64,000 nt of DNA from Prevotella sp. GTDB taxonomy: Bacteria > Bacteroidota > Bacteroidia > Bacteroidales > Bacteroidaceae. Position 1 is the first letter of the stretch. The number at the start of each line of letters is the position of its first letter. Under the pieces are notes generated by a model. That model saw nothing but the letters and a program-made list of their open reading frames with translations. It had not been told where the DNA came from and searched no databases. Below are positions 22,547 through 64,000 of this stretch, piece by piece. Position numbers and translations under genes: made by a program. Where the stretch lies: the NCBI GenBank assembly GCA_022486815.1, contig JAKVJW010000015.1:1-64000 (forward strand), written 5' to 3'.

Positions 22547-22610
22547 TTAAAATAAAAAGAACCAGCCCTTATTCCTGTAAAAGAATAAGGGCTGGTTCTT
22601 TTTATTTTAA
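22547..22610. terminator. Bidirectional terminator with 28-bp perfect stem
   Basis: TTAAAATAAAAAGAACCAGCCCTTATTC-ctgtaaaa-GAATAAGGGCTGGTTCTTTTTATTTTAA between convergent genes. Confidence 0.9.
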
Positions 22611-40109: not shown

Positions 40110-40310
40110 AAATTTTATATTTAAATGATTTATATTGGAAACTTACCAAGAAGTTTGTTATCGAATTCAAACCTGATTGTTTTGGATCTTGAATCTGGAC
40201 AGTAGTGATATAAAGTATCTATTACAAAAATATGACACATTACTATCATCGCTTTATCTTTAAACCATTACTCATTGATTTTCATTATCGAAGGCAAAAA
40301 TACATATTAT

Positions 40311-40606
40311 ACCGATTGGCGGAATTAAAGCATGAAGGAAAAGGCAGGGCAAGAAGTCGTATATATATTTAATTTTCAACCACTTATGCCGTTTATCATT
40401 TATATTACCACATGATCCGAAATTACCAGCACTCTGGTTATGAGCTTTCCAGTACTATGGAAAGGGGCTTTCCAGTACTATGGAAATGGGCTTCCAGTAC
40501 TATGGAAATGAGCTTCCAGTACTATGGAAATATGCTTTCCAATACTGTGGTAATGAGCTTTCCTGTTAGCGGTGATATTAGATGAAAATTAATTCCGCCA
40601 ACGGAT
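40311..40606. mobile_element. MITE-like non-coding element copy 1, with TIRs, 7-bp flanking direct repeats and an internal array of dyad repeats
   Basis: TIR ACCGATTGGCGGAATTAA / TTAATTCCGCCAACGGAT; flanking ATATTAT at 40304-40310 and 40607-40613; internal 22-23 bp units such as CTTTCCAGTACTATGGAAATGGG. Confidence 0.8.
40423..40580. repeat. Tandem ~22-23 bp dyad-unit array inside element copy 1
   Basis: Consecutive units TTACCAGCACTCTGGTTATGAGC / TTTCCAGTACTATGGAAAGGGGC / TTTCCAGTACTATGGAAATGGGC / TTCCAGTACTATGGAAATGAGC / TTCCAGTACTATGGAAATATGC / TTTCCAATACTGTGGTAATGAGC. Confidence 0.9.
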
Positions 40607-40879
40607 ATATTATGTATTACATTAAGATTTCTATTTGATAACAATACATTTACATTCTTATTTCGAATATATTACATGGGTTTTTTATTAAACGCTTCAT
40701 AATATAAAAGATAGGAATTCCTATCAAAAAGGTTATAATATCAGCCATTACATATATTTGTTAAATGAAAGCTGATATAATCAAAAGGTCATACAAAAGA
40801 AACTTCTGCCGGGTTCATTGATTCTCACCAATAAAAACATAAGATCTAGTTACATGAACATTTATACCCTTAAACAAAA

Positions 40880-61598: not shown

Positions 61599-61914
61599 TT
61601 TCACAGCAAAGATAGAGAGAAAAAGGAAAAGACCGTTATCCAAAAGTATTAAAAAAAGTAGAATTCTATTATTTTTATCTTCCTTTTACCTTTTTTTAAA
61701 GGATTCTCAACTTCAAGGCAAAATATAAAATTATTTTTTCTTACCTTTGCAAGAATTTAGGGTTTCCCGTACTATCAGAAAGGAAAAATAGACCCAGACG
61801 ACAAAAAGAATATACAAAAAGAGGGTGTATACATGCGTTCACTACCTGATGCTCACCTATACAGACTCTTGTTTGTCTCTATTAATCAATCATTCGCCAA
61901 ACCAAAATCAGACA

Positions 61915-62574
61915 ATGGAAATAAAAAATTTAAGTAAAGACAATTCTATTATCAACCAGTACATGGCTGAAATCCGTGATGCAGAATATCAAAAAAACCG
62001 ACTTCTGTTCAGAAACAATGTCACACGTATCGGAGAATGCGAAGCTTATGAAATCTCAAAAGCACTACACTATGAGGAAAAAGAGGTAACTACACCTCTA
62101 GGAATTTCAAATGTCAACATACCTAAAGACCAAATCGTCTTAGGAACCATCTTCCGCGCTGGCCTACCTTTTCATACTGGTTTCCTGAATATCTTTGATC
62201 ATGCCGAAAACGGTTTCGTATCTGCTTATCGCAAATATACAGATAAAGAGCACCACAATGTAGACATCCATGTAGAATATCTCGCTACTCCCAGCATTGA
62301 AAACAAGACCTTGATTATTGCCGATCCAATGCTAGCTACAGGGGGAAGCATGGAATTAAGTTATAAAGCCTTTTTGACCAAAGGTGTACCCAGACGTATT
62401 CATGTAGCCTGCATCATCGCTACTCAGCAGGGAATTGACCATATCAGATCTATCTTCCCAGAAGATAAGACAACCGTATGGTGTGCTGCTATAGATCCAG
62501 AAATGAACGAACATAAATATATTGTACCGGGATTTGGTGATGCAGGAGATTTATGCTATGGTGACAAGATATAA
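61915..62574 (+). CDS. upp: Uracil phosphoribosyltransferase
   Basis: ILRAGLPF-like TIFRAGLPFHTGFLNIFDHAE; LIIADPMLATGGSMELSYKAFL (PRPP loop). Confidence 0.93.
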   Translation: MEIKNLSKDNSIINQYMAEIRDAEYQKNRLLFRNNVTRIGECEAYEISKALHYEEKEVTTPLGISNVNIPKDQIVLGTIFRAGLPFHTGFLNIFDHAENGFVSAYRKYTDKEHHNVDIHVEYLATPSIENKTLIIADPMLATGGSMELSYKAFLTKGVPRRIHVACIIATQQGIDHIRSIFPEDKTTVWCAAIDPEMNEHKYIVPGFGDAGDLCYGDKI

Positions 62575-62696
62575 GTATGTCTTAACATGATTCCCCTAAA
62601 ACTGAGAATAAGGACAATTCCAGTTTCATATTCAGACCCAACGCAATTCTATCATCTTATTTCCAAAATGCTAACAGGTCTGAATATTTATTTATA

Positions 62697-63037
62697 ACCC
62701 GTTGGCGGAATTAAAGCATGGAGGAAGAAGCATGGCAAGAAGTCATATATATCTAATTTTCGGCCACTTATACCGTTTATCATTTAAATTACCACATGAT
62801 CCGAAATTACCAGCACCTTGGTTATGAGCTTTCCAGTACTGTGGTAATATGCTTTCCAATAATATGGTAATGTGGTTACCAGTACTATGGTAATAAGCAT
62901 TCCAGTACTGTGGAAATGTGGTTACCTGACTATGGTAATGTGGTTACCAGACTATGGGAATGTGGTTACCTGACTATGGTAATGTGGTTACTAAACTTAG
63001 CGGTAATATTAGATGAAAATTAATCCCGCCAACGGGT
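62697..63037. mobile_element. MITE-like non-coding element copy 2, with TIRs, 7-bp flanking direct repeats and an internal array of dyad repeats
   Basis: TIR ACCCGTTGGCGGAATTAA / TTAATCCCGCCAACGGGT; flanking ATTTATA at 62690-62696 and 63038-63044; same organisation as 40311-40606. Confidence 0.82.
62806..63012. repeat. Tandem ~22-23 bp dyad-unit array inside element copy 2
   Basis: Units TTTCCAGTACTGTGGTAATATGC / TTTCCAATAATATGGTAATGTGG / TTACCAGTACTATGGTAATAAGC / ATTCCAGTACTGTGGAAATGTGG / TTACCTGACTATGGTAATGTGG (x2) / TTACCAGACTATGGGAATGTGG. Confidence 0.9.
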
Positions 63038-63255
63038 ATTTATAGTATAACGACGTCTTTCCCAGAATAATAATCGTGTATGCCATAAATACACATTTTG
63101 TGAATATACAATGGCATCATATCTTTAAAGATTCTAAGATCTATTACAATAAAGTTAATCAGCATTCCCCATCAAGAAGAAATTTGTAAAAAATAAATAA
63201 AAAGTTAATTAAATCAACTAAAAGTTTCGTTTAATAAAATTATTTAGTATCTTTG

Positions 63256-63852: not shown

Positions 63853-64000
63853 TGAAAGCAGAAGATTTTCCTTGAAATATCTCAAGGAAAATCTCATAAA
63901 CTGATTTCATTTTATTACCCTGAAAAATTTTCATCAAAATCAGACTGTACCATTATCAAGTTGTGGTAATGAGATTATGTCGATCGCTTAAAAAAAAGTT

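Follow-up and report, generated by a model that had tools for sequence, protein, structure and literature searches.

Plasmid iterons lie next to a small gene with a spacing of about 22 bp, equal to two helical turns, and are classically direct repeats; type III toxin-antitoxin systems carry tandem repeats adjoining a small gene, and the repeat RNA binds an endoribonuclease toxin. REP/BIME sequences are clustered, dispersed intergenic palindromes; cognate copies accompany the gene for their RAYT partner, and the type of repeat tracks the protein (PMC3733652). BrickBuilt of Porphyromonas gingivalis is a short MITE (small non-autonomous transposon) with a leader and a tail around 23-nt tandem units, about 20 intergenic copies, IS5-like GAGACC... 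ends (Table 2 therein) and inconsistent duplications (PMC4596501).

The window analysed here, a stretch of 64,000 nucleotides (positions 1 to 64,000 of contig JAKVJW010000015.1 of Prevotella sp.), holds two copies of a MITE in which a left body is followed by an array of short inverted repeats, or dyads (Table 1). Judged from sequence comparison, we consider it probable that an IS982-moved MITE here carries a DUF6078-type array, that DUF6078 binds DNA in a sequence-specific manner, and that its sites are the arrays.

An IS982-type MITE carrying a dyad array

The first-pass annotation had described the 341-bp segment as one of two insertions of a mobile element, and its account of the architecture holds. 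The ends of copy 2 are complementary at 17 of 18 positions, the left body is common to both copies, and the 7-bp duplications of the two copies are unlike one another. A 12-base element end occurs three times in the window, compared with 0.11 expected. Neither copy encodes a protein, the longest stop-to-stop run in copy 2 being 66 codons, and the ORF upstream of copy 2 is presumably upp, as it was first named. Unit number varies, as had been noted, with nine units in copy 2 and seven in copy 1 when counted by eye. Elsewhere, the window contains a perfect, terminator-like 28-bp inverted repeat with an 8-nt loop (22547-22610), and a degenerate dyad resembling a single array unit (63946-63973; ACCATTATCAAGTTGTGGTAATGAG).

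Table 1. Coordinates, within the window, of the two MITE copies and the neighbouring gene.
Feature	Position	Strand	Remarks
ORF, putative upp	61825..62574	+	ends 115 bp before left duplication of copy 2
MITE copy 2	62697..63037	+	341 bp; no ORF
Left 7-bp target duplication of copy 2	62690..62696	.	ATTTATA
Right 7-bp target duplication of copy 2	63038..63044	.	ATTTATA
Left terminal inverted repeat of copy 2	62697..62714	+	ACCCGTTGGCGGAATTAA; identical to IS982-family element ends in relative G010
Right terminal inverted repeat of copy 2	63020..63037	-	TTAATCCCGCCAACGGGT; 1 mismatch to left end
Left body of copy 2	62715..62806	+	common to MITE copies
Dyad array of copy 2	62807..63006	.	~9 units of 22-23 bp, arms TTWCCA/TGGWAA
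MITE copy 1	40311..40606	+	296 bp
Left 7-bp target duplication of copy 1	40304..40310	.	ATATTAT
Right 7-bp target duplication of copy 1	40607..40613	.	ATATTAT
Dyad array of copy 1	40423..40577	.	~7 units

Searching the genome of origin (G000; 2.93 Mb, 85% complete) with the element yielded 32 matches spread over roughly two dozen places, with both MITE ends present at about a dozen and many of these flanked by distinct 7-bp duplications, in keeping with the independent insertions proposed earlier. Perfect duplications of differing sequence flank copies 1 and 2 and four further copies (L031, L034, L041b and L047), and near-perfect or shifted duplications were found at another five (L032, L038, L041a, L043 and L045). 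In the relative G010 (L054), a 1,025-bp segment between identical 18-bp ends encodes a 324-aa transposase, which scored 241 bits against the NCBI IS982 model NF033520 (cut-off 130), and the segment is therefore an IS982-type MITE; a second relative, G016 (L055), has a similar element inside near-identical ends. Matching ends, duplications of constant length, the lack of a transposase gene, a length below 1 kb and multiple copies are all as in an IS982-derived MITE, and an IS982-family transposase would move this non-autonomous element together with its DUF6078-type array. In G000, all IS982 copies found were broken, among them an internally deleted 578-bp remnant with perfect terminal repeats (L033; G000:C1:39992-40569) that adjoins an array-bearing MITE remnant. 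The duplication length of 7 bp rests on the MITE copies because IS982 copies in relatives had no clear 7-bp duplication. The MITE was not found in the other genomes among 398 of the same genus, and a pattern for its left end had 0 matches across the genome collection.

The first-pass annotation had also proposed that the arms changed jointly from TTCCA/TGGAA to TTACCA/TGGTAA, and here the counts disagree: across this genome the variable positions of TTxCC..GGyAA combine as A-T 50, T-A 12, A-A 23 and T-T 32 times, with no covariation (Fisher p=0.68). About half of the array units in this genome have an arm mismatch, and complementary pairs across the spacer are, if anything, depleted. The broader suggestion, that the dyad rather than its sequence is maintained, thus fails on the joint change in this genome, but draws support from the many self-complementary arms beside DUF6078 genes and from covariation within one arm type elsewhere (see below). 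The array is likewise no private part of the element: in G000, about nine places have arrays without recognisable MITE ends (L035, L037, L040, L042, L044, L048, L049, L052 and L053), and relatives have MITE-free arrays.

Period-22 arrays beside DUF6078 genes

A pattern of three consecutive arms matched 43 of the 398 same-genus genomes, with up to 168 matches in one and almost no control matches; G375 was the richest genome seen, with 84 pattern matches per strand and many arrays. A stricter four-arm pattern recovered at least 119 stretches from the public genome collection and none from viral contigs; the matches listed were mostly from Prevotella and allies, with others from Parabacteroides, Bacteroides, Tannerellaceae and one Flavobacterium. 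Successive arms are separated by 5 bp on either side, which gives a half-period of 11 bp. The arrays are mostly intergenic, between co-directional (60), convergent (28) or divergent (14) gene pairs, and those that lack MITE ends may have spread as well. A comparison of Segatella baroniae genomes, made to look for an empty insertion site, showed an array at the same place in two genomes and no match to the region in B14.

When proteins encoded beside arrays were clustered, the largest cluster was clearly DUF6078 (PF19555), with seven members from seven species, and in each of the seven the array starts shortly after the stop codon. The sole DUF6078 gene detected in G000 (C5:88671-89105) has a MITE-free array (L053) just 3' of it, of the same type as the array of copy 2; its best-scoring period is 22, compared with 23 for the MITE arrays, in which 22 ranks second. 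The next gene after that array (L307, 2230 onward, G000:C5) resembles sbcD, presumably encoding a subunit of the palindrome-processing nuclease to judge from its sequence; this single case was absent at other loci and was treated as chance.

Period-22 dyad arrays were present in 39 of 125 DUF6078 flanks within 400 bp, compared with 0 of 193 at 700-1500 bp (p=2e-18), raw fractions being inflated because genomes chosen for their TTACCA arrays supplied many of the 68 DUF6078 loci. Among 30 loci picked only by Pfam score, 11 had arrays, and most of the others are members of a subclass whose genes adjoin that of a VapE-like helicase. A scan of periods 16-29 (14 periods) that assumed no arm sequence gave a period of exactly 22 for about 42 of the 45 positive loci. 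A tblastn search of plasmid and phage-labelled records supplied five out-of-sample DUF6078 genes, one of Bacteroides finegoldii and four on contigs from human faeces; each had a 3' array with previously unseen arms, and 22 was the single best of the 14 periods in all five. Outside the one subclass, most DUF6078 genes have an array beside them, usually just after the stop codon and in some cases 5' of the gene. At the genome level, DUF6078 was detected in 18 of 19 array-rich genomes (at least 8 matches), compared with 60% of the genus, kinship being ignored; five of 28 genomes with at least two array matches had no detectable DUF6078. G012 has arrays and no detected DUF6078, and G309 (Segatella baroniae; C4, L310, L320) combines dispersed TTACCA arrays with a full-length DUF6078 gene bearing TTGGAC arms and a DUF6078 fragment nearby; in both, arrays may have outlived their partner protein. 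No DUF6078 was found in the viral collection, and the open-access literature, which covers only part of the field, yielded no papers on DUF6078 or on such repeats.

Arm types and the DUF6078 protein

The arms beside DUF6078 genes comprise about 20 different self-complementary sequences, including AGTACG/CGTACT, AGTCCG/CGGACT, TTCGGAC/GTCCGAA, TACCAC/GTGGTA, TTCCCA/TGGGAA, TTCCA/TGGAA, TTACGG/CCGTAA, TTGTAG/CTACAA, GTACA/TGTAC, TTGGAC/GTCCAA, TTATAC/GTATAA and GTTTTC/GAAAAC. Arms other than TTACCA were found at DUF6078 genes of genomes without TTACCA arrays, and several at second or third DUF6078 genes of genomes that also have them. Across 14 types, arm complementarity was 92%, compared with 41% when the 3' arms were shuffled between types, the representatives having been chosen by a dyad scan. 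Neighbouring units within an array share 92% identity in their arms and 51% in their loops and spacers, a difference seen in 40 of 40 arrays, and we therefore attribute the conservation to constraint on the arms, not just to copying.

The arm at the DUF6078 gene predicted dispersed arrays in two further genome groups. An AGTMCG pattern had 9-49 matches in six of the seven genomes with that DUF6078 type and 0 in three genomes of other types, and a TTCCA pattern matched exactly at five sites in G355, with no exact match in the other six genomes. Within the AGTMCG type, distinct dyads carry the variable pair as C-G 33, A-T 12, C-T 1 and A-G 0 times (p=3e-10, kinship ignored), and the nearest DUF6078 protein has the same arm in 26 of 44 cases, compared with 10 expected.

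DUF6078 itself is a protein of about 145 aa with conserved cysteines, modelled by AlphaFold with moderate confidence (pLDDT 79, pTM 0.63) with cysteines in the N-terminal part and helices in the C-terminal part. Fold searches with this model gave no significant match; weak hits to the BldD helix-turn-helix fold (probability about 0.05) and hits to small phage proteins (E=0.05 despite a probability of 0.99) were not relied on. By sequence, comparison with PDB, PHROGs and PADLOC gave no meaningful match, and no catalytic motif was recognised. The subclass directly downstream of a gene for a VapE-like P-loop helicase of about 403 aa (L266, L267, L273, L275-L277, L280, L282, L283, L286, L289, L290, L293 and L294) is mostly without arrays, and seven other loci have the gene order DUF6078 - array - VapE.

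The arrays, then, consist of inverted repeats in a row at a constant period of 22 bp, or two helical turns (22-23 in this genome), and arrays of the same arm type occur both at the DUF6078 gene and dispersed between genes. The period is constant and the split between loop and spacer variable, and a DUF6078 that binds double-stranded DNA on one face, every two turns, is therefore the simplest reading. Each DUF6078 would recognise its own arm sequence and bind it cooperatively on a single face of the helix, and on this proposal arm and protein would co-evolve. A binding protein had been suggested at the outset, and DUF6078 is now a concrete candidate. Points that weigh against the explanation as a whole are the moderate protein model and its lack of a significant fold match, the mostly array-free subclass next to VapE, the genomes that have arrays and no detectable DUF6078, the differing arm in G309, and the IS982 copies of relatives with no clear 7-bp duplication. 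Binding could serve regulation, chromosome organisation, replication together with VapE, or mobilisation of the arrays. On balance we favour the view that these are parts of an undescribed, Bacteroidales-wide DNA-recognition system, in which DUF6078 proteins read their own 22-bp-phased palindromic arms with some 20 co-diversifying specificities and the arrays are partly MITE-borne. Such a system would give a protein family without known function a candidate DNA target, would account for a large class of intergenic repeats that lack annotation in Bacteroidales of the gut, rumen and mouth, and would offer some 20 matched protein-site pairs at fixed helical spacing as a resource for the evolution of DNA specificity. 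It also prompts one to ask how dispersed arrays affect the chromosome, and the MITE illustrates how such sites may be carried to new loci.

Alternative explanations and known systems

The strongest competitor is a selfish system resembling RAYT and REP, in which DUF6078 or the VapE helicase moves arrays to intergenic sites with little regulatory role. It overlaps with our preferred explanation, for a mobiliser would bind too, and it accommodates the dispersed intergenic copies with their patchy species distribution, the excess of convergent (28) over divergent (14) gene pairs, and the REPtron-like placing of an array at the partner gene (PMC3733652). Against this, no conserved array ends were seen, the loops differ between copies, so that these are not of recent origin, a HUH transposase (PF01797) was not found in G000 (85% complete), G343, G375, G334 or G201, and DUF6078 lacks a recognised catalytic motif; we regard this explanation as possible but doubtful. 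Far less credible is an ordinary minisatellite within a MITE, as in BrickBuilt, whose unit number changes through slippage and which needs no partner protein. Its 23-nt units, with variable copy number inside a MITE (PMC4596501), are matched here, and a few homogeneous arrays do occur elsewhere (e.g. L167 and L186), but drift affects loops and spacers and spares the arms, MITE-free arrays exist in many species, and the adjacency to DUF6078 with its predictive arms already disfavoured this reading, making it very improbable.

An action of the array as RNA, through transcript hairpins that serve as a terminator, as a 3' UTR stabiliser or, for DUF6078, as a repeat RNA like a type III antitoxin, would suit its usual position just 3' of the gene and the folding of the element, which is better than that of shuffled sequences (z=-3.5), yet the element folds likewise as DNA (z=-3.4). 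The period of 22 holds however loop and spacer divide it, in keeping with helical phasing of DNA, arrays are in some cases 5' of the DUF6078 gene, dispersed arrays occur in all gene orientations, PADLOC gave no match for DUF6078, and an Rfam search of the window returned tRNAs only, all of which render a role as RNA unlikely. We judge as equally unlikely an iteron-like replication or maintenance module, in which the array, bound by DUF6078, would be the loading site of the VapE-like helicase: two-turn repeats of 22 bp, the order DUF6078 - array - VapE and a VapE-like domain score of 125 bits speak for it, whereas a VapE gene is missing near most array loci, single genomes carry many dispersed chromosomal arrays, and classical iterons are direct repeats.

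The novelty is the pairing of DUF6078 with its arrays, since none of the defining features tested for known repeat-protein systems is found here; the MITE alone belongs to a known kind. With IS982-family insertion sequences it shares identical 18-bp ends, the transposase family being confirmed in relatives, and it differs in having no transposase and an added dyad array. Type III toxin-antitoxin repeats contrast with an array that is usually 3', palindromic, helically phased and dispersed, and no similarity of DUF6078 to known toxins was found with PADLOC. The spacing is that of plasmid iterons, but the units are inverted repeats in dispersed chromosomal arrays, and a VapE-like helicase is near only some of them. 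BrickBuilt is alike in its leader and tail layout, its tandem array of ~23-nt units and its variable unit number, but the ends here are ACCCGTTGGCGG, of IS982 type with 7-bp duplications and not GAGACC, and the accessible part of the BrickBuilt description mentions no partner protein or dyad (PMC4596501). With REP and RAYT the system shares dispersed palindromes, copies at the partner gene and a repeat type that follows the protein; it differs in that no GTAG or CGTC tag was seen in the unit, whose arms are TTWCCA/TGGWAA, no RAYT was found in G000, and the repeats have a fixed 22-bp tandem phasing with DUF6078 as their partner.
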